Shown: one piece after another, positions 38,567 through 54,724 of the stretch
Layout: each line of letters opens with the position of its first letter
Position numbering within the stretch: position 1 is the stretch's first letter
Origin: Chryseobacterium sp. RU37D
GTDB lineage: Bacteria > Bacteroidota > Bacteroidia > Flavobacteriales > Weeksellaceae
Direction of reading: 5' to 3'
Assembly (NCBI RefSeq): GCF_900156075.1
Contig: NZ_FTMM01000003.1
Location: forward strand, 124,001 to 188,000
Length of the DNA: 64,000 bases
Translations under genes and position numbers: made by a program
The notes under the pieces: generated by a model
Databases searched by the model: none
The model's input: only the letters and a program-made list of their open reading frames with translations
Told to the model about the DNA's origin: nothing

Positions 38567-39988
38567 ATGCAAACAAAAACAATTAACTTTTTAATTCTCA
38601 TCTTTAGCACCTTTTTTATGATAATTAAAACTGATGCACAAGAAAACGCAGCTCCTTCAATACATTTAACTTCCTATTTTCCTTCTAATGATGCTATCTT
38701 GAAAATGCAAAAGATAAAGATCGTTCAATCGGCTAATAATTCATACTTTGAAATTAATAACTTCACAAAGGGATATGCAGGATTACAACAAACTTCATCT
38801 ACCCCTTCTGGTAATACAAATATTTTAATTTCTTCATTATGGGATGTCAATACACTTGCCGGTATTTATTCATCTGTAGATTATCATGACGCATTAACTT
38901 CTACAAGCCGTTTTGGTGGAGAAGGCGATGGTTGGAAGACGATCAACCCTTACGCGTGGGAAATTAATACCTGGTACAACTTGGTGCAAAGATCCTGGAA
39001 ATTAAATGGTAAATTATATATCTCTACTTTTATAAATAATATTTCAACCGGAAAGTGGTTTCATACTGCTACACTTTCAATCCCAGATCCAAATGTAAAT
39101 TTAGGCGCAAATAATGATGCCTTTTTAGAAAACTGGTATGGATATGATCCTTCTTGGAATGGCAGTAAAATAAGAAAAGCATTCTTAAAAGACACGTGGA
39201 ACTTGAACACCAATGGAAATTGGGAAAAAAATACCAGCGCATTTTTTAGTGCTAATAACAGTGCTGCAGATATACAAAGAAATGGAATATATCATAATAG
39301 TTTTAATGCTTATTATGACAATACCGAAAATGCTTACTGCATTCAACATGGAGGAAATTCTACCCCTTCTGCTGCCTTCAATAATGGAAGAACTTTATCT
39401 CTTCCTCCTCAAGCTAACCAAGGAACATCACCAATTTTGACTATAGGAACTATTAGTTCTGTAAATGCTAATTATAATAATGGTATCATCAATGTAAACT
39501 GGGCGATTGATCAATACAAATCCCCTCAATTAATTGCAAAAATTGATATAATTGACAATCTTAATAATATTGTGAAAACTGAACAATATACACTTCCAGA
39601 AAAAAGAAGTACTGCCATAAATTATAATTTAAGCAATGGTAATTATATAGCAAAAGTTACTATTATAGATATTTTTAATCAAACTTCAACACCAAAAACA
39701 TTTAGTTTTACAGTTGGTAATGGCAATCTTTCAACTGATGAACTTAATTCTTCAAAAGTATTGATTAAAGTCACTCCAAACCCTGCTAAAGAGTATTTAA
39801 CAGTTGTAGGACAAAACCTTAAACAAGCAATACTTTTTGATGAATCAGGTAAAGCAATCTTGACTGCATCATTAAAAAATTCCAACACACATATTAATGT
39901 TAGCTCATTGATAAAAGGATTATATTTTATAGCCATTAAAGACGAAAACAATAAAATTATTCATAAAGAAAAAATTATCATTGAATAA
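38567..39988 (+). CDS. Secreted DUF3472 protein with T9SS type A sorting domain
   Basis: A 473-residue exported protein. A Sec signal peptide (about 1-24, ends IIKTDAQE) leads to a DUF3472-like region (about 90-210: SLWDVNTLAG, RFGGEGDGWKTINPYAWEIN, WYNLVQRSWKLNGKLYIST), a beta-rich middle (about 290-385), and a type A T9SS C-terminal domain (about 395-473: VKVTPNPAKEYLTV in form IKVTPNPAKEYLTV, ending in IIHKEKIIIE). T9SS type A domains are cleaved after passage through the outer membrane, so the product is released or attached to LPS. DUF3472 proteins are thought to bind or act on glycans; the function is unproven. The gene is a single unit. Confidence 0.88.
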   Translation: MQTKTINFLILIFSTFFMIIKTDAQENAAPSIHLTSYFPSNDAILKMQKIKIVQSANNSYFEINNFTKGYAGLQQTSSTPSGNTNILISSLWDVNTLAGIYSSVDYHDALTSTSRFGGEGDGWKTINPYAWEINTWYNLVQRSWKLNGKLYISTFINNISTGKWFHTATLSIPDPNVNLGANNDAFLENWYGYDPSWNGSKIRKAFLKDTWNLNTNGNWEKNTSAFFSANNSAADIQRNGIYHNSFNAYYDNTENAYCIQHGGNSTPSAAFNNGRTLSLPPQANQGTSPILTIGTISSVNANYNNGIINVNWAIDQYKSPQLIAKIDIIDNLNNIVKTEQYTLPEKRSTAINYNLSNGNYIAKVTIIDIFNQTSTPKTFSFTVGNGNLSTDELNSSKVLIKVTPNPAKEYLTVVGQNLKQAILFDESGKAILTASLKNSNTHINVSSLIKGLYFIAIKDENNKIIHKEKIIIE

Positions 39989-40495: not shown

Positions 40496-43400
40496 TTAGT
40501 CTATGTTTTTCACTAGGATCCACCCGGTGTATTTAATTGGAGTTTTGTCTTTGTTTGGCTCATTCCAATTGATATGATACCAGTAAGTTCCTGTTATCAA
40601 TTTCTTATCAAAATGTCTGCCGTCCCACTTATAATTGTTGAACTTATCTCCCGTGAAGATTTTATTGCCATATCTGTCATAGATCGTAAACGAAAGATTG
40701 TCTTTATAAGCCAGCTCGCTGTAATCGATGACGTCGTTTTTATTATCCCCGTTCGGTGTGATTGCGTTAATAAGATTTGGTACGGTAACTTCTACAGAGA
40801 TTGGTGTACAGTTGTAAGCATCTTTTACATAGAATATATGCTGGCCTCTGGAAAGCCCTGTGAATACATTAGAATCCTGCCAGTTTGTAGGAGTATCTGC
40901 TGCATACTGGTAAGGCGCTTTTCCGCCAGTTACGTGTACCGTTACTGTGTTATTAGAAATTTCAATTTCTTTAATTACCGGATCTTCTGCTTTTTTAACT
41001 TTTACAAATTGCTTCACGAAGCACCCACTATCTTCAAGAATTACCCAGTAATCTCCCACTGAAATGTTTTGTATTGACTGAGTAGTTGCTCCTGTATTCC
41101 ATTCATAAGAAGCATATCCTGGTCCTGCGTCAAGGCTTGTTCTTGCATCAATACAGATTGTTTTATCTACCAAGACTGATGATCTTTTTGGAGGAATTAC
41201 TTTTAAATTAACTTTCGCGATAGCATAGCATCCATTGCTGTTATAAACCCTTACATAAGCAGTCCCGTTTCCTGAAATATAAGCATTTGCATTCAGGATC
41301 TCATTTGTTCCATTGCTTGCATCAACAAAAGTAGGATAGTATTTTTTAGTAATTGGAGCTTCGGAAGAAAATACTGCAATAGTAAGATCAAAAGAAGCCT
41401 TTGTTTCATCCATTTCAAGGAAACATTCGCTTAAGGTAGCTTCATTCACTACCGGTGTAGGAAGGAATTCTAGTATGATTTTTGCATTTCCTACACAACC
41501 TTCATTAGTTGTTACTTTTACATATACTACACCTGCTGCAGAAAGATAGTTCGTAGGATTGTTGATCATATTTGTTCCTGCATTAAGGTCTGCTAAAGTA
41601 GGATAGAAATTCTTTACTACAGGATTATATGACGTAACGACAGCTGTTGTAAGATCAAAGAATCCTTTTCCATCATATTGACAAGTTTTGATTGTAGCAT
41701 CATTTAAAACAAATGGAACAACATTTAAGTTTAATGTTACATGTTCACAATCAATAAACTCAGAAGCGTTTCCGCAGAACTGATAAACAATCTGGTCAGC
41801 ACCTAAATACCCAGGATTTGGAATATAAGTGATCTGCCCTGTTGATGGGTTCAGGGTAGCTGTTCCGTGTGTTGGGTAAGTAAGAATTGCTACTGTACTT
41901 GCTACCGGAGTCTGTGATGTATTGAATGAGAAAGTAGGTGTAATTACTTTAGTAGCACATGCATTTAATGAAGCAGTTGTATTTTTAACACAAGAGAATA
42001 CCTTATAAATTGGAGTTGTAACAGGAGGACAAGTTCCCATAGTTACTTTTACGGTGTAGTTACCTGCTTGTGTAGGTGTATAAACAGCTTGTGTAGCCCC
42101 TGAAATAGCAACTCCGTTCAGATACCATTGGTAGGTTTCAAAACTGTCATCCACTTCCAGTACGATTCCCGGTACACAATCTCCTGATTGTTTTGCAATA
42201 ACAGGGATTGACGAGAATCCTGCAAAATATCCACCATATCCTACAGCACCACTACCTCCGGCAATACCTGCAGTAACGGCTTTTGTAGAGTTTACAGTCA
42301 CATTCCCGGCTAACCCTGGGATGGAATAAGATACCCAGGCCGTAGTTCCTGTCACAGGATAAGGTCCCTGTGCAGTAGTAGGTGTGGTTGCCGGACCGCC
42401 ATTGGTGCTATAAGTCACTGTAGCACCCGCTTCTGTTAAGATATTTAATTTAATATCAGGGCTGGGGTTTCCGTTAAGGTCATTAATAAATGCGATTTCT
42501 TCAATTTTCCTTGGCAGGAAGCAGTTCAAAGGCGGGATATAGTTGTATCCCAATGTTGCAATACTTGTTGCAATACCGGCAAGAAGCTGGTAAACATAAA
42601 CATTTTTACTTGTTTTGATGTACATATTATAATGTCCGTTACCCTGATCTATGTAGTTAACGTTATTAGCCGGTGTTGCATTATTAGGGCCGTTTACTCT
42701 GTAGAACTGCCCTTCGTTAAGAGTTGCTACTACCGGGCCGCCGTTGATCTGTATTTCTGTATTATTTTCAGTGGCAATGATTAAGGCATCTTCCATCTGG
42801 GCTGTAACGTTACCATTTCCTTTTACAAGAACAAACTCGCTGCCTAATCTGTCCACAGGAACAGACTGGTCCATGATAATATCAGAGTTTCCGCCAACCG
42901 ATCCCCAGGAAAACTGTCCGTTGAAGTTCCCGTTTGTTAAAGAAATAGGTTTGTCAGATTCAATCTTTGCTCCGATGAATCCTGATGAGTTTCCGGATTG
43001 ATTTCCACGTCCTTCAATGATATAAGATTGTCCTTTGTTCAGCGTAAAAGACATAGAAGGTGTTGTAGCACCTGTTGTCCCGTTTGAAAATATGACTCCT
43101 GCAGAGTATCCTGAAACCGTAATTACGGTATTGTCTTCAGTTGCCAAGATCCCTGCCATAAAGTTATAGATACTTCCTCCGCCTACATCGGTGATAGGAG
43201 CAGCAGCGGCATAGAATTTTTTACCGATACCCGCTTTTCCTTTAGAAGTCAGGATTTCACCGTGGCTGGGAATTGAAAATCTAAGATTAGCATAATAAGG
43301 TTTTTGCCCTTTCGTATAAAGTCCTTTGGTAATAGGGGTGAAAAGGTCTGCCTGCGACGTGGTGATAATATTTTCTACAGGAACCACGAAGACTTTTGGA

Positions 43401-43627
43401 TCTCCTTTACTGATGGTAACAGTACCAATTGGAGCATTATTGTTGTAAATAGTTACTTCAAATGGAGTGGTAGAATCGGTAGAGAAATAAATAGACTGGC
43501 TGTTTGTTCCTCCGGACAAACCTGTTCTGTTCATCATCGGTGCAAACCAATGTTCTGTATCTCTTTGTGCAAAGAGGGTGTTAATCGTCAAAAAAACTAA
43601 TATTAAGCTGAGTAGAAATCTTTTCAT
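40496..43627 (-). CDS. Giant secreted adhesin-like protein: IgGFc-binding-type N domain, T9SS type B C-terminal domain
   Basis: A 1043-residue exported protein. Signal peptide 1-20 (ends LFAQ); N region about 21-470 starting TEHWFAPMMNRTG, like the IgGFc_binding_N family found in surface proteins; an Ig-like part (about 490-560, ETYQWYLNGVAISGATQAVY); a cadherin/big-domain-like part (HGTATLNPSTGQITYIPNPG); two similar repeats about 85 residues long (each with a Cys, then FDLTTAV/FDLTIAV); and a gliding-motility type B domain (about 945-1043: NAITPNGDNKNDVIDYSEL, FTIYDRYGNKIF, GTYWYHINW). Type B proteins stay surface-anchored. Adhesion or matrix binding is inferred. It has a paralog at 46203-49610. 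Confidence 0.9.
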   Translation of the reverse strand: MKRFLLSLILVFLTINTLFAQRDTEHWFAPMMNRTGLSGGTNSQSIYFSTDSTTPFEVTIYNNNAPIGTVTISKGDPKVFVVPVENIITTSQADLFTPITKGLYTKGQKPYYANLRFSIPSHGEILTSKGKAGIGKKFYAAAAPITDVGGGSIYNFMAGILATEDNTVITVSGYSAGVIFSNGTTGATTPSMSFTLNKGQSYIIEGRGNQSGNSSGFIGAKIESDKPISLTNGNFNGQFSWGSVGGNSDIIMDQSVPVDRLGSEFVLVKGNGNVTAQMEDALIIATENNTEIQINGGPVVATLNEGQFYRVNGPNNATPANNVNYIDQGNGHYNMYIKTSKNVYVYQLLAGIATSIATLGYNYIPPLNCFLPRKIEEIAFINDLNGNPSPDIKLNILTEAGATVTYSTNGGPATTPTTAQGPYPVTGTTAWVSYSIPGLAGNVTVNSTKAVTAGIAGGSGAVGYGGYFAGFSSIPVIAKQSGDCVPGIVLEVDDSFETYQWYLNGVAISGATQAVYTPTQAGNYTVKVTMGTCPPVTTPIYKVFSCVKNTTASLNACATKVITPTFSFNTSQTPVASTVAILTYPTHGTATLNPSTGQITYIPNPGYLGADQIVYQFCGNASEFIDCEHVTLNLNVVPFVLNDATIKTCQYDGKGFFDLTTAVVTSYNPVVKNFYPTLADLNAGTNMINNPTNYLSAAGVVYVKVTTNEGCVGNAKIILEFLPTPVVNEATLSECFLEMDETKASFDLTIAVFSSEAPITKKYYPTFVDASNGTNEILNANAYISGNGTAYVRVYNSNGCYAIAKVNLKVIPPKRSSVLVDKTICIDARTSLDAGPGYASYEWNTGATTQSIQNISVGDYWVILEDSGCFVKQFVKVKKAEDPVIKEIEISNNTVTVHVTGGKAPYQYAADTPTNWQDSNVFTGLSRGQHIFYVKDAYNCTPISVEVTVPNLINAITPNGDNKNDVIDYSELAYKDNLSFTIYDRYGNKIFTGDKFNNYKWDGRHFDKKLITGTYWYHINWNEPNKDKTPIKYTGWILVKNID

Positions 43628-43705: not shown

Positions 43706-44345
43706 TTATTCGCGATTTTTTATTAATATCCAACCTGAATAAGAAACCGAAAGTTTGGTATCTGGTTCGATCCATCTCAATAAATACCAGTAAGTTCCGG
43801 TAGCCTTCCATTTAGCTTTCCGTCCCAGATATAATTTTTGTCCGCTGACCTGTAAACGAGCGCTCCGTAACGGTCGACAACTTCTATCGAAACATCCTGC
43901 TTTATCCTCAGATCAGAATAGTTTAAAACGCCATTAATTCCGTCATTATTCGGGGTGATGGCATTAATAAGATTTAGCACTAAAAATTCTTTGATCACAG
44001 GAGTACATCCGTCTGCTCCCAGAACATAAACGATGTGCATTCCTCTTGATAAGCCTGTAAAGACGTTCGAAGCCTGATAATCAATTCCATTTAAAGAATA
44101 CTGATAAGGCGGAGTTCCTCCTGAAGCAAAAACAGTAGCATTATATCCTAACACTTCAATTCTGTTAATTGTTGGAGCCTGAGTTGTCGTCACATTTACA
44201 TACTGACGATAAATACAGCCGTTAAATCCTAAATCCACATAATAGCTTCCCGCACCTACGCTCATTAACTCCTGTATTTGCGGATACCCTTGCTAATAAC
44301 TGATAAACATAAATATTCTTATTGGAAGAAATTCCCATATTGTAA
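43706..44345 (-). pseudogene. Remnant of a third IgGFc/T9SS type B protein with internal deletion
   Basis: On the minus strand the remnant begins near 44345 with NYNMGISSNKNIYVYQLLA, which matches HYNMYIKTSKNVYVYQLLA in the neighbour. After a few codons it jumps straight to the type B end region: an open frame 44265-43777 reads SVGAGSYYVDLGFNGC, then NAITPNNDGINGVLNYSDL. Near 43797 a frameshift separates KLNGRLP from the normal end GTYWYLLRWIEPDTK...LIKNRE (stop at 43706-43708). So the part between the IgGFc domain and the tail is deleted, with two frame breaks. The gene cannot make the full protein. Confidence 0.85.
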
Positions 44346-44413: not shown

Positions 44414-45238
44414 TTATAAGCTTACTCTTACAAATCCTGTTACTTTCAAATCTCCGTTTGCAGACTTTACATAGTCAGCAACTGACATGCTTGCATCTTT
44501 AATGAAATCTTGGTGTACCAAAGTGTTGTCTTTGTAGAATCTCTGCATTTTACCTTTAAGGATATTATCAATAATGTTTGCAGGCTTACCTTCTTCAGTA
44601 AGTTTGTGTCTTTCGATTTCTAATTCTCTGTCGATAGTTTCCTGAGAAACAGCAGTTTCGTCAAGAGCGATTGGGTTCATCGCAGCAACCTGCATAGAAA
44701 CAGACTTAGCAGCTTCATCGGCTCCGTCTACTTTAGCAGAAAGAGATGTGATAGCAGCGATTTTGTTTCCTGCGTGGATGTAAGCTCCTAAGAAAGGCCC
44801 TGTAATTCTTTCGAATGCGCCGATTTCAATTTTTTCACCGATAACACCTGTCTGCTCAACTAATTTCTCAGCAACAGTAATACCGTGGAAATCTGTAGCT
44901 AAAAGCTCTTCTTTAGTAGCCGCGAAGATTGCCATTTCTGCCAGTTCATAAGCCAGTTCAATGAAAGCTTCGTTTTTCGCAACGAAGTCAGTCTCGCAAT
45001 TTAAAGAAATAACAGCACCTAGTGTGTTATCTTCGTTTACTCTTGCGATTACTGCCCCTTCAGTGGATTCTCTGTCAGCTCTGTTAGCTGCTACTTTTTG
45101 TCCTTTTTTTCTAAGGATATCTACTGCTTTTTCGAAATCTCCTTCAGCTTCTACTAAAGCTTTTTTGCAGTCCATCATACCTGCACCTGTCTGGTTTCTC
45201 AATTTTGCTACGTCTGCAGCAGCTGGTGTATAAGACAT
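44414..45238 (-). CDS. tsf: Translation elongation factor Ts
   Basis: A 274-residue exchange factor that frees EF-Tu from GDP. The UBA-like N domain has AKLRNQTGAGMMDCKKALVEAEGDFEKAV (in positions 10-40), and the EF-Tu contact motif TDFVAKNEAF is near residue 82. The C-terminal core and coiled coil are complete. It is essential. Normally it follows rpsB directly; here rpsB lies 8.7 kb away on the same strand and accessory genes fill the gap. A TATCTTTG box upstream (45301-45308) shows that it has an independent promoter. Confidence 0.96.
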   Translation of the reverse strand: MSYTPAAADVAKLRNQTGAGMMDCKKALVEAEGDFEKAVDILRKKGQKVAANRADRESTEGAVIARVNEDNTLGAVISLNCETDFVAKNEAFIELAYELAEMAIFAATKEELLATDFHGITVAEKLVEQTGVIGEKIEIGAFERITGPFLGAYIHAGNKIAAITSLSAKVDGADEAAKSVSMQVAAMNPIALDETAVSQETIDRELEIERHKLTEEGKPANIIDNILKGKMQRFYKDNTLVHQDFIKDASMSVADYVKSANGDLKVTGFVRVSL

Positions 45239-45300
45239 AATATCTATTTATTTTTTTATTTAAGATTAGTAATAATTTTTAGCTTAATTTTAAAGCAGTG

Positions 45301-45308
45301 CAAAGATA
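45301..45308 (-). promoter_or_regulatory. -7 box of tsf
   Basis: The minus strand reads TATCTTTG, 63 bp before the tsf start. It would let tsf be expressed apart from rpsB. No TTG partner was found. Confidence 0.55.
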
Positions 45309-45381
45309 ATGATTTTAATGATAAACTAAAAAAGGACTTTTTGCGTTATTGGTATATTTAATAATTTTAAATGATTAATTA

Positions 45382-46089
45382 ATGAAAAAAATATTTCTCC
45401 TTATATTTTTATGCATTTTTACTCTAGGCTTTTCGCAAAAAAAGAAAAAAGCGAAATCTAAAGCTATTGTCGAAAAGGAAACTGTTATCATTTATACCGA
45501 AAGCGATGCAGAAGCCACTACGGAAGCAAGAGTGATTGCAGGCTTCCTAAAACAAAATCCCGGGCATGCCAAAACAGAGTATTTCAAAAAGAAGCTGATT
45601 CAGATGATCATGGCGAATAATTCTCCAGAGGCCAAACCTACAATAAAGCCTTTAAACGAAGAGAAAGTAAAGCAAATGGTTCTGGAAAGCAACAGCCTGA
45701 ACAATGCTAAAACTATTGCAGCTAATACAGGCTCCGCAGTTCCAGAAAGAACAGTAAACTATGCAAGCGTTGCAGGAACAAGCAAAAAAGGATCTGGGCC
45801 GAGCGAGCAAAACAAAAGGACTGCAGCAATGCTTACCCACATGTTCAACAACGACCCGATGGATAAAGAAGCTTACATTAATATCAAAAACAGATCAAAA
45901 TGTAACCTAATTGTAAAGATTACAGGAAAAAAATATTACAATCTGGATGTTCCTGCCAACGGGCAAAACTTCCTTTTGGTGGAAAAAGGAGAATATGTTT
46001 TAACAACAATGGTTTGTGATGCTAAATATTCTTCTATAAAAAAAATCAATAAGGATATTGAGCTTGAGCTGAATTTGAGGGATGAGTAA
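45382..46089 (+). CDS. Secreted two-cysteine-domain protein, family member A
   Basis: A 235-residue exported protein. Signal peptide about 1-19 (MKKIFLLIFLCIFTLGFSQ), then a lysine-rich segment. Residues about 50-75 (VIAGFLKQNPGHAKTEYFKK) recall the FL..AHPDDP block of members B and C. The C-terminal domain (about 150-235) has NRSKCNLIVKITGKKYY, VPANGQNFLLVEKGEY and the second Cys in TMVCDAKYSS. These two cysteines and their surrounding residues recur in the proteins at 51028, 52755 and 53433. I do not know the function; it may correspond to a family listed as a domain of unknown function in Chryseobacterium (DUF6759 is my best guess, unverified). A strong terminator follows. Confidence 0.82.
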   Translation: MKKIFLLIFLCIFTLGFSQKKKKAKSKAIVEKETVIIYTESDAEATTEARVIAGFLKQNPGHAKTEYFKKKLIQMIMANNSPEAKPTIKPLNEEKVKQMVLESNSLNNAKTIAANTGSAVPERTVNYASVAGTSKKGSGPSEQNKRTAAMLTHMFNNDPMDKEAYINIKNRSKCNLIVKITGKKYYNLDVPANGQNFLLVEKGEYVLTTMVCDAKYSSIKKINKDIELELNLRDE

Positions 46090-46112
46090 TAATTATAAAT
46101 AAAATAATACTT

Positions 46113-46152
46113 AAAAAAACGGTTAAGAAAAATTTCTTAACCGTTTTTTTTT
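46113..46152 (+). terminator. Strong terminator after member A
   Basis: AAAAAAACGGTTAAGAAA pairs exactly with TTTCTTAACCGTTTTTTT around two A residues, 23 bp past the stop. Confidence 0.9.
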
Positions 46153-46175
46153 AAGTTACTAAGATTTTTTATTAT

Positions 46176-46183
46176 TAAATTTG
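46176..46183 (+). promoter_or_regulatory. -7 box of the 1135-aa T9SS gene
   Basis: TAAATTTG lies 19 bp before the start codon at 46203 and 23 bp beyond the preceding terminator, so the giant gene has its own start of transcription. Confidence 0.5.
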
Positions 46184-46202
46184 TAATAAAAGCGATAACC
46201 GA

Positions 46203-49200
46203 ATGAAAAAAATCCTATCTTTTTTATTTGTATTCTATTTTTCCGTCTCTACATTTGCCCAATTGGATAGGGAACATTGGTTTGCACCCATGGTAGACCG
46301 TACCGGAAACCCAAACCCCAATCAGAAACTATATCTTTCAACCAACCGTACGACACCGTTTCCGGTAAGTATTTATAATAATAATGTTTTAATTGCAACC
46401 GTTAATATAAGCAAAGGGAATCCTCAAAAAATTGATATCCCAAGAAACTTCATCATTACTACCCTACAAACAGACCTCTTTACGCCAGGTACTAAGGGTC
46501 TTTATGTAAAAGCAGAATTCCCTTTTTATGCTAACCTAAGATTCTCGGTATACAATCACGCAGAGATTATTACATCAAAAGGGATCTCTTCCACAGGGAA
46601 ATTATTTTATGTTGCCCACGCACCTATTACGGTGATCAACCCTATTCTGAACTTCATGACGAGTATTCTTGCGACAGAAGACAATACCGTGGTTACTGTA
46701 TCAGGATATAAGCCTACCGTACAGTTTTCTAACGGGACAAACGGGACAACAACTCCATCTATGACTTTTACCTTAAATAAAGGACAATCCTACATCATCG
46801 ACGGAAGCGGAAGCATCAGCGGGAATGCCGATGGTTTTATCGGATCCAAAATTACAGCCACAAAACCAGTGAATGTCACCAACGGGAATTTTAACGGACA
46901 ATATGCCGGAAATTTTCCTTCCAGCTCGGATATTCTAATGGATCAGGCTGTTCCTGTGGACAGATTAGGAAACGAATTTGCCCTTGTAAAAGGGAACGGA
47001 AGCCTTACTTCAAACATGGAAGGCGCCCTTGTAATAGCCACAGAAAACAATACGGAAGTCCTAGTAAATGATGAAATCACGCCTGTAGCAGTTTTAAATA
47101 CAGGAGAGTATTTCAAGATACCATCTTCTAAATATCAGCTTCAGGGAAATAATCATTATAATTTATATATAAAAACAACTAAAAACGCATATATTTACCA
47201 GCTTCTCGCAGGAAATGCCGACTCTACGGGCAATGAGATAGCAACAGGTGGGTTTAATTTTATTCCGGCCCTTAACTGCTATTTGCCAAAACAAATTAAT
47301 GAGCTTGGGCTTATTGATGAAAATTATGTGTTTTCCAATGGTAACCCTGCCGGAATTCTGAATATTCCTACAAAATTAAATTTAATAACTGAAAAAGGTG
47401 CCGCCGTTACCGTAAATGGAGTTACTCCTCCTGCTTCCACCGGACCTTTCAACGTGACCGGGACCAACAACTGGGTAACCTATGGCATTCCGAATACTAC
47501 AGGAACCATTACCGTGGTTTCTTCCAAAGCAATTACAGCCGGGATTAATGCAGGAAGTGATGCTATAGGCTATGGAGGATTCTTTGCGGGATTCTCGACT
47601 CAGCCCGCGATCCTGAAATCTGGAGGTGATTGTATCCCGGGAATTGTACTTACTGTAGATCCTATTATTTATGATACTTATCAATGGTATGTTAACGGCA
47701 CGCTTATTCCGGGCGCTACTTCTTCCTCAATAACACCAACGCAGTCGGGATACTACACTTGCTCTATAACGATGGGAAGCTGCGCACCTTTGGTAACGGA
47801 ACAATTTAAGGTACTAAACTGTACAAAGTTGTCTACAGCAAGCTACGATGCCTGTACCTCAAAAATCATTATACCTGCTTTTTCAAGCTCTGCACAGACA
47901 CCTGTTCCTTCAACGGTTTCTATTGTTACAGCCCCTACTCTGGGTACTGCCGTGGTCAACCCTACAACCGGTGTGATTACCTATACCGTCACCACTCCGG
48001 GGACTACAGGAACTGATACTTTCACATATACTTTCTGCGGAAATGACGTCAATTTCCCAGATTGTGAAACAGTGACCGTAACCATGAACATCCAGGCGTT
48101 AATCGTGAATAATGCTACATTAACTACATGTAATAATAACGGAACAGGGCAGGGTACTTTTAATTTAACGACAGCAAACGTAACAAGTAATTCTCCGGTA
48201 ACGATCACTTATTATCCGAGCTTAATTGATGCCCAGAACGAAAACCCTGCAGCTTTAATTACCAATCCTTCAGCTTATAATGCTGCCAACGGAACCCTAG
48301 TTTATGCCGTGGTTGCCAATGCGATCGGGTGTAAAAGCATTGTAAATATTACGCTTAACTTATTCCCTTTTGCAGAAGTCTCTTCCAATTATACGACAAC
48401 ACTTTGTGATGAAAATGTAGACGGCTCCGTGAATGTGATTTTATCAGATATCACGCCGCTTGTTTTAGCAAATTCAACTTACTTTACCGGAGTAAGATAT
48501 TATGCCAATTTAACAGATGCTAATGCCGGAAATACAAATGTACTTCCTAACAACTGGTCATACAGCACCACAACGACTATTTACATCAGAGTAGATTCCC
48601 CGGACAGCTGCCCTCCCGTGATCAAACCGCTTATTTTTAACGTTTCTCCAAAGCTGCCTTTGATAAGAACGACCTATCCTGTAACAGTCTGTGACGATGA
48701 TCTGGATGGTATAAAATCAATGAATCTACTATCTTATATCAATTTATATACTACAGATCCTCTGGTGACAGTGAGTTTCCATGGAACTTTGACCGATGCG
48801 CAAAATGACCAGGCTCCGATAGGAAACCCGATGAATATTACGGGGACTCAAACCGTTTACATTAGATTTGAAAAAGCCGGGGCATGTCCGAATATTGCTT
48901 CAATTACAATAACGATTAAAGTTCCGAAACATTCAGCGGTTTTATTTGATAAAGTAATTTGCAGTAAGGCATTGACCACACTGAATGCAGGTCCTGGATT
49001 TGACAGCTATCTTTGGAGCACCGGAGCCACTACACCTTCTATTTCCAACGTACCGGCAGGAAGCTATTGGGTAGATCTTACCTCAGTCGGATGTACATAC
49101 AGGCAACATGTAAACGTTACAGAATCAACACTTCCTGTGATCACCCTGATCGAGATCAACGGAAATACAGTGACTGTAGGTGCCAGCGGTGGAACCCCTC

Positions 49201-49610
49201 CTTATCAGTATTCGCTAGATGGAATAAACTGGCAGGATTCTAATGTTTTCACCAATGTTCCAAGAGGAAATCATACTCTTTATCTACGTGATTCTAACCA
49301 GTGTGAGGATATTACAAGAACTTTCGTGATTATAAATCTGATCAATACCATTACCCCAAATTTTGACGGGTATAATGACGCCATCGATTATTCTGCTTTA
49401 ATGAATAATGATAATATACAGTTCAGAATTTTCGACAGATATGGAGCCGAAGTTTTCAAGGGAAGCCCTACCAACCGATTTATCTGGGACGGAAAAATCA
49501 TCGGAAGACCCATCAATACAGCAACTTACTGGTATTTTTTAAGTTGGACAGAATTTGGAGGAACCACTACCGTGAAATATACGAGCTGGCTTCTGGTAAA
49601 AAACTATTGA
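46203..49610 (+). CDS. Giant secreted adhesin-like protein, second paralog (IgGFc-type N domain, T9SS type B)
   Basis: A 1135-residue exported protein, the plus-strand relative of 40496-43627. Signal peptide about 1-19 (ends TFAQ); N domain begins DREHWFAPMVDRTG; YNLYIKTTKNAYIYQLLAG matches the equivalent block of its paralog; an Ig-like part YDTYQWYVNGTLIPGATSSS; a cadherin/big-domain-like part (LGTAVVNPTTGVITYTV); several Cys-containing beta repeats (NNATLTTCNNNGTGQGTFNL and later ones, one repeat more than the paralog); and the type B C domain (about 1035-1135: NTITPNFDGYNDAIDYSAL, FRIFDRYGAEVF, TYWYFLSWTEFGG). It should be anchored on the cell surface. Ligands are unknown. Confidence 0.9.
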   Translation: MKKILSFLFVFYFSVSTFAQLDREHWFAPMVDRTGNPNPNQKLYLSTNRTTPFPVSIYNNNVLIATVNISKGNPQKIDIPRNFIITTLQTDLFTPGTKGLYVKAEFPFYANLRFSVYNHAEIITSKGISSTGKLFYVAHAPITVINPILNFMTSILATEDNTVVTVSGYKPTVQFSNGTNGTTTPSMTFTLNKGQSYIIDGSGSISGNADGFIGSKITATKPVNVTNGNFNGQYAGNFPSSSDILMDQAVPVDRLGNEFALVKGNGSLTSNMEGALVIATENNTEVLVNDEITPVAVLNTGEYFKIPSSKYQLQGNNHYNLYIKTTKNAYIYQLLAGNADSTGNEIATGGFNFIPALNCYLPKQINELGLIDENYVFSNGNPAGILNIPTKLNLITEKGAAVTVNGVTPPASTGPFNVTGTNNWVTYGIPNTTGTITVVSSKAITAGINAGSDAIGYGGFFAGFSTQPAILKSGGDCIPGIVLTVDPIIYDTYQWYVNGTLIPGATSSSITPTQSGYYTCSITMGSCAPLVTEQFKVLNCTKLSTASYDACTSKIIIPAFSSSAQTPVPSTVSIVTAPTLGTAVVNPTTGVITYTVTTPGTTGTDTFTYTFCGNDVNFPDCETVTVTMNIQALIVNNATLTTCNNNGTGQGTFNLTTANVTSNSPVTITYYPSLIDAQNENPAALITNPSAYNAANGTLVYAVVANAIGCKSIVNITLNLFPFAEVSSNYTTTLCDENVDGSVNVILSDITPLVLANSTYFTGVRYYANLTDANAGNTNVLPNNWSYSTTTTIYIRVDSPDSCPPVIKPLIFNVSPKLPLIRTTYPVTVCDDDLDGIKSMNLLSYINLYTTDPLVTVSFHGTLTDAQNDQAPIGNPMNITGTQTVYIRFEKAGACPNIASITITIKVPKHSAVLFDKVICSKALTTLNAGPGFDSYLWSTGATTPSISNVPAGSYWVDLTSVGCTYRQHVNVTESTLPVITLIEINGNTVTVGASGGTPPYQYSLDGINWQDSNVFTNVPRGNHTLYLRDSNQCEDITRTFVIINLINTITPNFDGYNDAIDYSALMNNDNIQFRIFDRYGAEVFKGSPTNRFIWDGKIIGRPINTATYWYFLSWTEFGGTTTVKYTSWLLVKNY

Positions 49611-50031
49611 TCTTCCTAGGCTAAAAGAGACACAAAAGTTTTCCAATATTAAATGAATTTATTTAAGTATCCCAAAATATTGGTAAAAACCTTATATCTT
49701 TTGTAATAAAAGATAATCTTATCCTATTGTGCATTTAGAGCAAAGACTCATAAGATGGAAATTTCAAATAATTCTAAAAGGATTTTACTCCCAGAATATA
49801 GGTTTAAAAATGCAAAAATATTGTATAATTATCTCTTTTTACGAAAAATCCATTTTTATATTTTTATAATCAACTGATTATCAATTCACATGAGTAGAAC
49901 CCCTGATACAAAACAAGTAATCTTATAACATTCCTTAACAATTTTATAGTAAAGTTTAATATAACTTTAACCGTTTTCGCTACCAAATCAGGTATAAACT
50001 GATGCTTTTCTGCGTAATTTTGTCACATTAT
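49611..50031. other. 421-bp gap after the giant T9SS gene
   Basis: AT-rich. No gene, repeat or hairpin terminator could be supported. A TAATTTTG box at 50015-50022 is the likely -7 element of the next gene, 10 bp before its ATG. Confidence 0.55.
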
Positions 50032-50820
50032 ATGAAGAAGCTATTCACCTTATTGCTGTTGGTTTTTCTGGCAAAAATTAACGCTCAAATATATTCTGGA
50101 GAAGTTTTTTTGAGAGATAACTCAGTATTATATCTCAACCAGGTATATGTCACCAATCTTACTACTCAAAAAACGGTACTCACCGATTACAATGGTGATT
50201 TTAATCTGCCCTCAAATCCGGGAGATATTATTCGTTTTACCTCTATTGTTACAGAAAGGAAGGATATTAAACTTACTTCTCAAATGCTCGGACCAAAAAA
50301 TTTAATAGAATTAAAAATAGCTTACCGTGAAATTCAGGAAGTGGTTCTTAGCAGATTCAAGCCTACTGGAAATCTGAGGTATGATGTGAACGCCTTGAAA
50401 AAAGAAGATAAAGGTCTGGCCATCAAAAAAGTAATCGGCCTGCCGGAACCAAAAGGGGACGGAACACCTCCACAACTTCCTGTCGCAGGATTGAGAGATG
50501 GTGGGCTTACCTTCAGCCTGGAAAGCATTTACGATATCCTGTCCGGCGAGAGAAAGAAAAAGCAACGATATATGGCTTATGAAAGAATGAATAATTCTAT
50601 TACCCAGATAAAAAATTATTTAGGAAAAGACTATTTTACAAAATTTAAAATTCCTGAGAATTTAATTGATAATTTCCTGCAATTCGTCTATACTTCTGAA
50701 AATATTGAATCCTATGTCATGATTGGAAATTTTGAAGCTATAAAGCTTCCTATTGAGAAGTATCTCCCTATTTATCAGCGGAGACTAAGGAATTCTCACC
50801 TGCAGGAGGTTCTAAAATAG
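50032..50820 (+). CDS. Secreted carboxypeptidase-like regulatory-domain protein
   Basis: A 262-residue exported protein. I take the ATG at 50032, which gives a clean signal peptide (MKKLFTLLLLVFLAKINAQ); an upstream in-frame start would place ten residues before it. The first 100 residues (YSGEVFLRDNSVLYLNQVYV, TVLTDYNGDFNLPSNPGD) form a carboxypeptidase D regulatory-like beta-sandwich, often found at the N terminus of TonB-dependent receptors, here without the receptor. The remaining part (GLPEPKGDGTPPQLPVAGLR, then helices) is not recognised. It should be periplasmic or outer-membrane-associated. It stands alone: a terminator follows. Confidence 0.75.
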   Translation: MKKLFTLLLLVFLAKINAQIYSGEVFLRDNSVLYLNQVYVTNLTTQKTVLTDYNGDFNLPSNPGDIIRFTSIVTERKDIKLTSQMLGPKNLIELKIAYREIQEVVLSRFKPTGNLRYDVNALKKEDKGLAIKKVIGLPEPKGDGTPPQLPVAGLRDGGLTFSLESIYDILSGERKKKQRYMAYERMNNSITQIKNYLGKDYFTKFKIPENLIDNFLQFVYTSENIESYVMIGNFEAIKLPIEKYLPIYQRRLRNSHLQEVLK

Positions 50821-50841
50821 GAAAACAATCTAAACAAATAA

Positions 50842-50876
50842 AAATGTATCTGTAATTTTCTACAGGTACATTTTTT
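50842..50876 (+). terminator. Terminator after the regulatory-domain protein gene
   Basis: AAATGTATCTGTA pairs with TACAGGTACATTT (one G-T) around a short loop, with a T run; 22 bp after the stop. Confidence 0.8.
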
Positions 50877-51027
50877 ATTAATAATTGTTTAATTTTAAAG
50901 AAAATTCAGTGTTTAAAATAAAAAAAACGTATTTTCGTTATCATCTTAGACACTAAAAAACAATAACCAGACACCAAACACAATAAAAGGAAAAAAATAT
51001 TTATATTTTTAAACTTAATATTAGTGA

Positions 51028-51816
51028 ATGAAAAAGATACTTCGACTCTTTAGTGCCTTATTATTTATAAATTTTTCTGCCCAGAAAAAAGGGAAGGACT
51101 ATAGTGACATCTTAAAAAGTAAAAATATTTATGAGATTAATGCTTTTTTGAGAGATGCACACCCTGATGATCCCCGAAGATCTGTTCTGAAACCTCGCGT
51201 CATGGATATGATGAAGGAATATATCAAAAACGCGCAGCCCGGGGACACTAAAGTAAAGCAAATGCAAGACTGGCTTGCCATGCTAAAAAGAAGACCTTCT
51301 ACAAAGATATCTTTCGAAGAAATGAATGCTATCATCAAGCAGAAACAGATAGCAAAATACCAAAAAGAGCTTCAGATGGGGCAAGCTGCTGTCGTATACA
51401 CCCCAAGTACATCAAAAAACGTATATGTAGCTCCCAGCACTCCTGAGGTGGCAATACCTTCTGCCGCAATTCCTGATTCGGAATCTTCTGAGTTCAATAT
51501 GCTGATGGCAGAGAATCCGGTAGAGCATAAAAATAAAACAGTAAAAATTCTTAATTCTCTTTTTGATAATGATCCTTATGCAAAGGAATGTATCGTTATG
51601 ATTGAAAACAAATCCGATTGCAATATCATTGTAAGGATAGAAGGAGTTGGAACTACAAAATACAGGCTTCCTGTTCCTGCTCACGGCGATAATTCTATTG
51701 TGGTCCAAAAAGGAGATTACCTTTTCACTAGCATTGTATGTGGAGCGCAATATGCTTCTCAAAAAACCATTCAGAAACCCATAATGGTAGCATTAGGAAG
51801 TTCCGGAAAGAAATAA
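51028..51816 (+). CDS. Secreted two-cysteine-domain protein, family member B
   Basis: A 262-residue exported protein. The signal peptide is about 1-18 (ends NFSAQ). Residues about 32-60 contain KNIYEINAFLRDAHPDDPRR, matching KSITEIENFLKTAHPDDPKR of member C. A Gln/Lys-rich helical middle and a Pro/Ser linker lead to the C-terminal domain (about 170-262): VKILNSLFDNDPYAKE, NKSDCNIIVRIEG, VPAHGDNSIVVQKGDYLFTS and the second Cys in IVCGAQYAS. The two cysteines could form a periplasmic disulfide. The function is unknown. It lies between a terminator and trmB, on the plus strand. Confidence 0.82.
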   Translation: MKKILRLFSALLFINFSAQKKGKDYSDILKSKNIYEINAFLRDAHPDDPRRSVLKPRVMDMMKEYIKNAQPGDTKVKQMQDWLAMLKRRPSTKISFEEMNAIIKQKQIAKYQKELQMGQAAVVYTPSTSKNVYVAPSTPEVAIPSAAIPDSESSEFNMLMAENPVEHKNKTVKILNSLFDNDPYAKECIVMIENKSDCNIIVRIEGVGTTKYRLPVPAHGDNSIVVQKGDYLFTSIVCGAQYASQKTIQKPIMVALGSSGKK

Positions 51817-51872
51817 ACTTCATATATAGATTTTTTTCATTATTAAAAATGAGATATTTGTATAAATTTTGC

Positions 51873-51880
51873 TAATTTTG
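51873..51880 (+). promoter_or_regulatory. -7 box of trmB
   Basis: TAATTTTG lies 13 bp before the trmB ATG; a short or leaderless transcript would result. No good TTG partner at 17-20 bp. Confidence 0.4.
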
Positions 51881-51893
51881 CTGGATTTAAATC

Positions 51894-52571
51894 ATGGGTA
51901 AAAATAAATTAGCAAGATTCGCAGAAAACAAAATATTACCAAACGTTATACAGCCTACAAGAGAGGAAGCTTTAAATGGCTTTGAACTTAAAGGAAAATG
52001 GCGCTCAGCCTTTTTTAAGAATGAATATCCCATCGTTCTGGAACTTGGCTGTGGAAAAGGTGAATATTCCGTAGGCCTTGCCAAAACCTTCCGTGAGAAA
52101 AATTTTATCGGTATTGATATCAAAGGAGCAAGATTCTGGTTTGGAGCTAAAGAAGCGGTGGAAAGCGGAATAAATAATGTTGCTTTTTTAAGAAGCCAGA
52201 TAGAGCTTGTAGATTCTTTTTTTGGAGATAACGAAGTAGATGAAATCTGGATTACGTTCCCGGATCCGCAGATCAAATACAAACGTACAAAACACAGGCT
52301 GACACATCCGGATTTCCTGAACAGGTATAAAAAATTCCTGAAACCTGGTGGTATCGTACATCTAAAGACAGATTCCGAATTCCTTCACGGATACACTTTA
52401 GGGTTACTGCAAGGGCTTGGTTACGAAATACTTACAGCACATCATGATATTTATGGTGCTTTAGAATATGATCCAAAAACCGAACATTTACGAGATATCA
52501 AAACCTATTATGAGGAATTATTTTCTGCAAAAGGGAAAACCATTACCTACATTAAATTTAAAATTAATTAA
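51894..52571 (+). CDS. trmB: tRNA (guanine-N7-)-methyltransferase
   Basis: A 225-residue SAM enzyme that makes 7-methylguanosine at position 46 of many tRNAs. VLELGCGKGEYSVGLAKTF is motif I (about 46-64), followed by FIGIDIKGARFWFGAKEA, then the family signature IWITFPDPQIKYKRTKHRLT (about 123-142) and LKTDSEFLHGYT. The length is normal. A housekeeping gene inside the accessory block, between members B and C of the two-cysteine family. Confidence 0.95.
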   Translation: MGKNKLARFAENKILPNVIQPTREEALNGFELKGKWRSAFFKNEYPIVLELGCGKGEYSVGLAKTFREKNFIGIDIKGARFWFGAKEAVESGINNVAFLRSQIELVDSFFGDNEVDEIWITFPDPQIKYKRTKHRLTHPDFLNRYKKFLKPGGIVHLKTDSEFLHGYTLGLLQGLGYEILTAHHDIYGALEYDPKTEHLRDIKTYYEELFSAKGKTITYIKFKIN

Positions 52572-52754
52572 ACCATAACAACAAGATGATCAAAAATTTA
52601 AACTCCCAAAAACTCTATTTTAAGCTTTAACGTTAAAGCATTCTCACCAGTAGATACTGATTTGTTACTATACTCTACTAATACGTATCCCTACTTGTCA
52701 AAACACACACTCTAAAAAGAATAAGATTTAATTTATTAACAAATTCCCACTTGT

Positions 52755-53402
52755 ATGAAAAAAAAATTTTTGTTTAGTTTAATATTAATAACACTTATTT
52801 CTTGCAGCACAAGTAAAAATGCCCAAAAGAATGAAAATATTCTTGAAAGTAAGAGCATAACTGAAATCGAAAACTTTCTAAAGACGGCCCATCCTGATGA
52901 TCCAAAAAGAAGAATATTAAAATCTAAACTTATCGCTTTAAAAAATTCTGAATGGATAAAAGGAAGAAAAGATGCTAAACCGATGGAAGCAAGACCAATT
53001 ATTTCCGAAATCCCAAGTAGCGTACTGAAAAATTCGAATTCAGCTGAAGCTGAAGAGTTTAAGCGACTTATTGCATCCACCTCAAAAGAACACCAGCAAA
53101 AAACAGTAAACCTGCTGAATGCAATGTTTAATGAAGACATTAGCAGCAAGGAGGTAATTCTTCTATTTAAAAACCATTCTGACTGTAATCTTGTTCTAAG
53201 AATTCAAGGAAAAGATTTCTATAATATGGCAGTCCCTGCAAAGGGCGAAAATTTTATAGTCATTAATAAAGGTACTTATATATTAACCAGCAATGTCTGT
53301 GATGTGATATATTCTTCTAAGAAAGAAATTAATAAAAGTATTTTTGTGACAATTAGCAACCCTGAACAAGTGGATCATAAAAATGCTTTAGAAAAAAAGT
53401 AA
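52755..53402 (+). CDS. Two-cysteine-domain lipoprotein, family member C
   Basis: A 215-residue lipoprotein. The signal ends in the lipobox ITLISC (Cys17), so it should be lipid-anchored. The block KSITEIENFLKTAHPDDPKR follows (about 35-55), and after a linker the shared C domain (about 110-205): VNLLNAMFNEDISSKE, NHSDCNLVLRIQGKDFY, VPAKGENFIVINKGTYILTS and the second Cys in NVCDVIYSS. It reads as the closest relative of member A in the C-terminal part and of member B in the N part. It is 31 bp upstream of member D. No function known. Confidence 0.82.
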   Translation: MKKKFLFSLILITLISCSTSKNAQKNENILESKSITEIENFLKTAHPDDPKRRILKSKLIALKNSEWIKGRKDAKPMEARPIISEIPSSVLKNSNSAEAEEFKRLIASTSKEHQQKTVNLLNAMFNEDISSKEVILLFKNHSDCNLVLRIQGKDFYNMAVPAKGENFIVINKGTYILTSNVCDVIYSSKKEINKSIFVTISNPEQVDHKNALEKK

Positions 53403-53432
53403 AAAGTTTAAATTTACGGGAAGAAATTTTAT

Positions 53433-53900
53433 ATGAGAAAAAAATTGCTCTTATACGTAAGTTTTGTTATTGCATTTTTGGAAAACTGCGAGACGACCCA
53501 CTACAGAACAACAGCAGACAGCCCTGTTAGAAGGTCTTATCCTATTTCAAATACAGGAAACAGGGCAACAACCTCAGCCTCACAGACTGAATTAGAATAT
53601 CAGGCTTTGGTAAAAACTTATAAATCAGAAACAGCAGAGGTTTTAACAGACCTTTTGAATAATCCGTCACCGGATGATCCTAAAACATCTATTACTGTAG
53701 AAAATAAATCCAGATGTAATATGGTATTGACTATAAGTGGTAATAATTATTTTAAGAAAATCCCGATTGGGACAAACAAAATAGCTGGTGTAATGGTTCC
53801 CAAAAACCAAAATTATAATTTTTCCGGAATGCTCTGCAACTCGATTTATCAGAAAACAAAATTCATTACAAGCACCTATAACATAACCCTTTCAAATTAA
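53433..53900 (+). CDS. Two-cysteine-domain lipoprotein-like protein, divergent member D
   Basis: A 155-residue protein. The N terminus MRKKLLLYVSFVIAFLENCE is a likely lipoprotein signal, although the residues before Cys19 (LEN) are a poor lipobox. The AHPDDP block is replaced by a Ser/Thr-rich linker, with SPDDPKTS just before the C domain (about 85-155): ENKSRCNMVLTISGNNYF, and the second Cys in GMLCNSIYQK. It is the shortest and most divergent member of the four and follows member C closely, so both are probably co-expressed. A bidirectional terminator separates it from rpsB. Confidence 0.75.
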   Translation: MRKKLLLYVSFVIAFLENCETTHYRTTADSPVRRSYPISNTGNRATTSASQTELEYQALVKTYKSETAEVLTDLLNNPSPDDPKTSITVENKSRCNMVLTISGNNYFKKIPIGTNKIAGVMVPKNQNYNFSGMLCNSIYQKTKFITSTYNITLSN

Positions 53901-53948
53901 TAACATAAAAAACTCTGAACTAATAAAAGTTCAGAGTTTTTTATGTTA
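53901..53948. terminator. Bidirectional terminator between member D and rpsB
   Basis: TAACATAAAAAACTCTGAACT is the exact complement of AGTTCAGAGTTTTTTATGTTA across a short AT loop. It ends transcription from both convergent genes; the stops lie at 53900 (plus) and 53963 (minus). Confidence 0.9.
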
Positions 53949-53962
53949 TTGAAAATCCTTAA

Positions 53963-54724
53963 TTATTCAGCATCGAAATCTGCATCTTTATCAGCAGAGA
54001 CCACTTCTCCTTCTTCTTTAGATTTTTCTTTATCTGCTTTTCTTTGAGATTGCCCTTCTTTGATAGCCTCAGAAACTACATTAAGGATCATATCAATAGA
54101 TTTAGAAGCATCATCGTTTCCTGGGATAACGAAGTCTACTTTTCTTGGGTCAGAGTTTGTATCAACAATACCGAAAACTGGAATACCTAATTTCTTAGCT
54201 TCAGTTACAGCGATGTGTTCTCTTAAAATATCAACTACGAATACAGCAGACGGAAGTCTCACCATGTCAGCGATAGAACCTAAGTTCTTCTCAAGATTAG
54301 CTCTTTGTCTGTCTACCTGTAATCTTTCTTTTTTAGATAAAGTTTCGAAAGTTCCATCTTTTTTCATTTTGTCGATGGAGTTCATTTTCTTTACTGCCTT
54401 TCTGATAGTAACGAAATTCGTTAACATACCCCCAGGCCATCTTTCTGTAATATAAGGCATATTAAGTTCAGCAGCATGCTTAGCAACTACCTCTTTCGCT
54501 TGCTTTTTTGTAGCTACGAAAAGAACTTTTTTACCTGCAGAAGTTAATTTTTCTAAAGCGTTACAAGCTTCATCCAATTTAACAGCTGTTTTATGTAAGT
54601 CTACAATGTGAATACCATTTTTCTCCATAAAAATGTATGGAGCCATATTTGGGTTCCACTTTCTAGTCATGTGACCGAAGTGTACGCCAGCCTCTAGAAG
54701 GTCTTTTACATTTGCTTTTGCCAT
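53963..54724 (-). CDS. rpsB: 30S ribosomal protein S2
   Basis: A 253-residue ribosomal protein. The start MAKANVKDLLEAGVHFGHMTRKWNPNM (positions 1-27) is canonical, as are ERWPGGMLTNFVTIRKAVK and IPVFGIVDTNSDPRKVDFVIPGNDDA. The C-terminal tail is Lys/Glu/Asp-rich (EEGEVVSADKDADFDAE), as in other Bacteroidota. It follows rpsI with a 183-bp gap of degenerate repeats (54725-54907). tsf, its usual 3' neighbour, is not adjacent. Confidence 0.97.
   Translation of the reverse strand: MAKANVKDLLEAGVHFGHMTRKWNPNMAPYIFMEKNGIHIVDLHKTAVKLDEACNALEKLTSAGKKVLFVATKKQAKEVVAKHAAELNMPYITERWPGGMLTNFVTIRKAVKKMNSIDKMKKDGTFETLSKKERLQVDRQRANLEKNLGSIADMVRLPSAVFVVDILREHIAVTEAKKLGIPVFGIVDTNSDPRKVDFVIPGNDDASKSIDMILNVVSEAIKEGQSQRKADKEKSKEEGEVVSADKDADFDAE

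Follow-up and report, generated by a model that had tools for sequence, protein, structure and literature searches.

DUF6759 proteins of Weeksellaceae: a clade-specific family of small envelope modules encoded around a split rpsB-tsf operon, one member of which may be linked to type IX secretion

We analysed a stretch of 64,000 nucleotides of the Chryseobacterium sp. RU37D genome (assembly GCF_900156075.1, contig NZ_FTMM01000003.1, positions 124,001 to 188,000; hereafter the window) that codes for four small exported proteins, called A to D here. Sequence comparisons indicate that they are paralogues of one Weeksellaceae-specific family, DUF6759, of small and seemingly non-catalytic envelope modules. 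The reading that we tentatively favour, with somewhat less than even confidence, is that they are non-catalytic binding modules of the periplasm or outer membrane (OM), in which the soluble member A would be an accessory linked to the type IX secretion system (T9SS) and the lipoproteins would have an OM task independent of the T9SS. The four open reading frames were confirmed at 45382, 51028, 52755 and 53433.

A: 45382..46089, + strand; 235-residue soluble Sec-exported protein with a diverged N-terminal block and a DUF6759 domain at residues 141-231
B: 51028..51816, + strand; 262-residue soluble Sec-exported protein with an AHPDDP N-terminal block, a long linker and a DUF6759 domain at residues 165-258
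C: 52755..53402, + strand; 215-residue protein with lipobox LISC, a helical hairpin at residues 35-68 and a beta-sandwich at residues 133-200
D: 53433..53900, + strand; short DUF6759 lipoprotein of 155 residues, without the N-terminal block

A first-pass annotation of the window, made from the sequence alone, had described the four as homologues with a shared C-terminal pattern belonging to an unrecognised family. The homology was borne out, and the family turned out to be catalogued already. All four proteins match nearly the whole 94-position model of Pfam PF20545 (DUF6759), at 134.6 (A), 124.7 (B), 121.4 (C) and 62.4 bits (D) for a curated gathering threshold of 27 bits; the corresponding E-values (1.4e-39, 1.6e-36, 1.8e-35 and 4.6e-17) place the homology far over chance level. 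The Pfam entry gives no function and we found no publication on the family. No NCBIfam model matches A to D. They are full members of PF20545; the Pfam model covers neither the hairpin at the N-terminus nor the division into paralogue classes. The genome has no DUF6759 copies other than these four, all within the window.

In a MAFFT alignment of the four proteins the N-x-S-x-C-N motif is invariant and is followed by I-x-G, K(-G)-x-Y, C, Y, K and I; in D the K(-G)-x-Y motif reads K-N-Q-N-Y. The FL-x-x-AHPDDP-like N-terminal block initially ascribed to three members is clear in B (FLRDAHPDDP) and C (FLKTAHPDDP), but A has just a diverged counterpart (FLKQNPGHAK), and D has none. In A, B and C a flexible linker follows the block. 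We collected 80 orthologues of B in Chryseobacterium, with 72-92% identity. Both B and C are under purifying selection: relative to Chryseobacterium daeguense, the nonsynonymous and synonymous divergences (dN and dS) are ~0.04 and ~1.4 for B and ~0.15 and ~2.7 for C, the latter dS being near saturation; dS could not be computed for D. A search for a Bacteroidota-type promoter motif upstream of A, B and C yielded no convincing site.

The presence of Sec or lipoprotein signals on all members was confirmed. A and B have Sec signals, C has the lipobox LISC, and D reads LENC, a poor lipobox whose Cys residue is nevertheless invariant in 23 orthologues; the D orthologues nearly all have L-x-S-C. Among Chryseobacterium proteins, a lipobox is found in none of the A (0/8) and B (0/81) sequences and in 73 of the 79 D sequences, the other six having near-lipobox strings in which the Cys is kept. 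For C, 24 sequences have a lipobox and 42 have none, a few of the latter being borderline (e.g. LVCC); C is thus a lipoprotein in RU37D and in about a third of the Chryseobacterium species, and a soluble Sec protein in most of the rest. As its anchoring differs between species, the location of C is not fixed. Judged by these signals, the family does mix soluble and lipid-anchored envelope members, with C changing its anchoring among species. The idea of an envelope system with members in different places hence holds for the soluble and lipid-anchored classes, but not for C as a member with one set location.

We modelled C, using 72 homologues, and D with AlphaFold2; D is the most divergent member, and A and B are nearer to C in sequence. 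The C model starts with a hairpin made of helices 35-44 and 50-68, with a predicted local distance difference test (pLDDT) score >90 in the core. A linker predicted to be disordered leads from there to a pair of helices and then to the seven strands, which span residues 133-200 (pLDDT 84-92). The D model comprises two helices and the same seven strands at residues 84-153 (pLDDT 83-96, mostly >90). The models thus predict one seven-stranded transthyretin-like beta-sandwich common to the C and D domains, the pair in which a difference was most to be expected, rather than the unrelated folds that would have spoken against a single family.

The two cysteines are invariant in 278/278 distinct proteins, as are N140, S142, Y175 and Y186 (C numbering), and 209 of the domains in this set contain exactly two cysteines. 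In the models, the first cysteine, Cys144 in C, lies in the loop joining strands 1 and 2, and the second, Cys182, in the turn that links strands 5 and 6. Because these two loops share an end in the up-and-down sandwich, a disulfide is likely, which would staple them together. The invariant residues of the 278 proteins (N, S, C, Y, C and Y) include no conserved polar catalytic set. An enzymatic role was considered and rejected, since catalytic residues are not conserved and most of the sandwiches matched in fold have binding or structural roles. The C-terminal sandwich may rather serve as a binding or adaptor module in the periplasm or on the OM side.

For both models the best structural match is the extracellular domain of PepT2, a sandwich of similar size (Z 7.9 for C, 8.0 for D). 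The best domain of AlgF (Z 7.2 and 6.4), TssJ1, a TssJ lipoprotein of the type VI secretion system (Z 5.5 and 5.4), and the luminal domain of HGSNAT are also among the transthyretin-like matches, which include several envelope proteins and several periplasmic binding or scaffold modules. No sequence similarity was found between these proteins and DUF6759, and Z-scores of up to 8 are common for this fold and do not imply common ancestry. Scores of this size are usual for so common a fold, and we assign no function from them. Foldseek also returned many chains of the von Hippel-Lindau (VHL) beta-domain for both models (E ~1e-3 to 1e-2, probability near 1.00). We rejected this relationship as a generic sandwich match: TM-scores are 0.2-0.4 at 8-15% identity, and VHL does not appear in the top VIA-align rows. 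When Protein Data Bank sequences were searched with a profile, no credible relative emerged, with only chance matches to ribosomal protein eS6.

DUF6759 is present in 162 of the 197 genomes sampled from the same family, Weeksellaceae (154 over the cutoff), and Chryseobacterium species typically have three to four copies. In a phylum-wide sample it occurs in 10 of 395 genomes, nine of which belong to Weeksellaceae. A tree based on tsf and trmB from 28 genera (designated below by g and a number) unites every genus with DUF6759 in a single clade (support 1.0), within which g16 has lost the family. DUF6759 thus arose once and is nearly confined to Weeksellaceae. In g33 there is no DUF6759 match, including around its trmB gene, which at 80% identity suggests that this genus lies inside the clade. 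Putative diverged homologues in two other genera were discarded: the weak matches in g21 correspond to an unrelated protein encoded between rnc and pyk, and those in g29 (E 0.003-0.03, in frames of ~1000 codons) were ascribed to chance. A is the sole copy, beside tsf, in g14, g15 and g25 and, being the only one left in these genera, looks like the core member of the family.

The genes of A to D are located in an island delimited by tsf and rpsB, with the following neighbours.

tsf: 44414..45238, - strand; TIGR00116, 230.5 bits; divergent from A, with 143 bp between them
IgGFc_binding protein with a T9SS type B sorting domain: 46203..49610, + strand; PF17517, 124.3 bits; TIGR04131, 52.5 bits
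BamP-superfamily protein, product of a conserved partner gene: 50002..50820, + strand; likely start 50032; CarbopepD_reg-like N-terminal domain
trmB, tRNA (guanosine(46)-N7)-methyltransferase: 51894..52571, + strand; NF001080, 299.8 bits; between B and C
rpsB: 53963..54724, - strand; TIGR01011, 304.7 bits; right edge of the island
Second IgGFc_binding protein with a T9SS type B sorting domain: 40496..43627, - strand; PF17517, 128.1 bits; TIGR04131, 51.7 bits; in the inverted segment described below

The rpsB-tsf pair, usually contiguous, is split here by an island of 8.7 kb (44414-54724 of the window). In the six outgroup genera tested (g10, g17, g19, g21, g28 and g29) tsf, rpsB and rpsI are contiguous, whereas no genus with DUF6759 shows this arrangement (Fisher p = 3e-6). 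As contiguity is seen in outgroups only, the island in the split operon goes back to the common ancestor of this clade. Operon split and family lie on one branch and therefore represent a single event, not a statistical proof of function. A DUF6759 gene is found divergent beside tsf in 21 of 22 DUF6759 genera; it is of type A in 20 of them and codes for a D-like lipoprotein in g23. One of the 20, that of g12, was assigned to type A by its position and N-terminal block, its domain being placed elsewhere in the tree with low support.

Nearly all of the 80 named Chryseobacterium loci have the same gene order, i.e. IgGFc T9SS genes, a 50002-like gene, B, trmB, C and D, followed by rpsB and rpsI on the opposite strand; C or D is sometimes missing or swapped. 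C and D, 30 bp apart in the window, are probably co-transcribed. Where the flank is long enough, A is found divergent beside tsf, upstream of the IgGFc array. The segment 40496-46089 of the window, which holds an IgGFc gene, the remnant of a gene, tsf and A, runs in the opposite direction to its counterpart in all other Chryseobacterium loci seen, in which A is antisense and tsf sense to B. This inversion is apparently specific to this genome, and an assembly error is possible. It is because of this local inversion that A adjoins and points at an IgGFc gene in the window. Thus, the interleaving of the four genes with trmB (51894), a gene for a regulatory-domain protein (50002, CarbopepD_reg-like) and two genes for giant T9SS proteins (46203 and 40496) was correctly described, and the locus next to T9SS type B genes is kept throughout the genus, but the head-to-tail arrangement of A and the IgGFc gene is local. 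The remnant, at 43777-44265 (- strand), corresponds to the C-terminal part of an IgGFc/T9SS type B gene, with a shortened CHU_C domain (positions 2-66 of 86). A gene at 38567-39988 (+ strand), between accA and the inverted segment, codes for a DUF3472 protein that carries a sorting domain of T9SS type A.

We then considered the relationship of the family with the T9SS, whose translocon is SprA. Of 30 genera, 28 have SprA; the two that lack it are g22, represented by two genomes, and g23, represented by a complete genome in one contig, and they apparently represent independent losses of the T9SS. The genomes of g22 (G022 and G045) and g23 (G062), at least 93% complete, have neither a SprA match nor IgGFc proteins. 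A is absent in g22, as tsf has no DUF6759 neighbour in either genome. The sole DUF6759 copy of G022, found by screening ~1.1 Mb of genome until the one expected copy appeared, codes for a D-like lipoprotein of 143 residues (L268:3984-4415) with a GTG start codon and the lipobox LAVSC. Its gene follows guaB directly and is remote from both tsf and trmB. g23 keeps two copies, both coding for lipoproteins, one C-like and one D-like. Among 24 clade genera, 20 have both A and SprA, two have SprA only and two have neither (Fisher p = 0.022). Since g22 and g23 occupy separate places in the tree, A would have been lost on two separate occasions, and genome reduction is not the cause in g23, whose genome is 4.4 Mb. 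Given these two co-losses, A is, with moderate support, a reasonable candidate for a T9SS-linked accessory.

As a family, in contrast, DUF6759 is independent of the T9SS, since it is kept in both SprA-less genera. A core component should be present wherever SprA is, which DUF6759 is not, and an accessory factor should be lost with SprA, as A was in two events only. The T9SS link drawn in the first-pass annotation hence survives in a weaker form for A alone, absent exactly in g22 and g23, and not for the family as a whole. We also rejected the possibility that A to D are T9SS cargo: they have no match to CHU_C/TIGR04131 or Por_Secre_tail/TIGR04183, unlike their neighbours at 40496, 46203 and 38567. 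Soluble A may thus be a clade-specific accessory of T9SS export, neither part of the T9SS core nor dedicated to the adjoining IgGFc cargo, and the lipoprotein members may have an OM function independent of the T9SS, in the vicinity of the BamP-like protein whose gene adjoins B. A sharper version of this proposal, in which the tsf-linked A would be a Weeksellaceae-specific T9SS accessory gained once and lost twice with SprA, with its lipoprotein paralogues on a separate OM task, appears rather unlikely to us in this full form.

Several observations weigh against the favoured reading. The co-losses of A and SprA number only two, the position of g22 in the tree is weakly supported (0.13), and the fold matches, with a best Z of 7.9 and 8.0, are near noise for sandwiches this common. 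Moreover, SprA occurs without DUF6759 in g10, g16, g17, g19, g21, g28, g29 and g33; A is thus not required for the T9SS, as g16 and g33 lost the family and keep SprA, and the tested outgroups likewise have SprA. It is quite possible, although we doubt it somewhat, that A to D are general envelope proteins without any T9SS link, a lineage-specific set with structural or stress roles in the periplasm and OM, and that A disappeared from g22 and g23 by coincidence. The persistence of DUF6759 lipoproteins in genera devoid of SprA and the absence of the whole family from T9SS-positive outgroups fit this explanation, and synteny may last merely for want of rearrangement. It accounts less well for the loss of A in both SprA-less lineages as opposed to its retention in 20 of 22 SprA-bearing clade genera, or for the retention of A even in genera that lost all other copies.

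The IgGFc proteins are the neighbours that most readily suggest a function, with DUF6759 proteins as chaperones or surface partners dedicated to these T9SS adhesins. Many genera have IgGFc genes next to tsf and A or next to the BamP-like gene, and A is present in all 16 genera (16/16) that have both an IgGFc gene and DUF6759. However, PF17517 proteins occur in 18 of 33 genera, and their distribution does not follow that of the family: A is found without any of them in g2, g3, g14 and g18 (the g14 genome being only 80% complete), eight genera have DUF6759 without PF17517, and g17 shows the reverse. As A and the family occur without PF17517, the IgGFc cargo proteins are not obligate partners, and an obligate form of the assembly with the giant T9SS proteins suggested at first was rejected on presence and absence across genera, as well as by the occurrence of DUF6759 in two SprA-less genera. 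A dedicated helper role thus seems quite improbable.

The other conserved neighbour points to OM protein assembly, in which A to D might be accessory proteins that work together with the BamP-like protein whose gene neighbours B. In Flavobacterium johnsoniae, BamP binds the BamA barrel, and its homologues differ in the very loop that is situated at the seam with BamA (PMC12611786). The 50002 protein has the same order of parts as BamP, i.e. a signal, a CarbopepD_reg domain, a loop and a C-terminal domain, and the profile hidden Markov model of its family aligns over its full length with BamP-superfamily paralogues. It nonetheless scores 31.9 bits with the NCBIfam BamP model (NF053692), below the cutoff of 230, so that BamA binding is at most putative, and no protein of this genome exceeds that cutoff. 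Because the seam loop diverges among homologues, the function of BamP is not transferable to the 50002 protein. The BamP-like gene is a stable neighbour of trmB or B in 14 genera; a strong orthologue is present in most DUF6759 genera and in none outside, it is kept in both SprA-less genera together with DUF6759 lipoproteins, and it is missing along with DUF6759 in g16 and g33. Yet g27 has DUF6759 without a strong BamP-like orthologue, and as both genes follow one clade, phylogeny explains most of their co-occurrence, which weakens it as a proof of a functional relationship. We regard a role centred on OM assembly as unlikely. In its own right, the protein encoded at 50002-50820 is a candidate protein of Weeksellaceae associated with the beta-barrel assembly machinery (BAM).

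DUF6759 proteins have no described role, although most of the species sampled in this large Bacteroidota family carry them, in up to five copies. This analysis splits the family into classes and traces it to a single origin along with the broken rpsB-tsf operon. It also argues against the IgGFc adhesins as the obvious partners and indicates that the loss of one member, A, tracks the loss of the T9SS.

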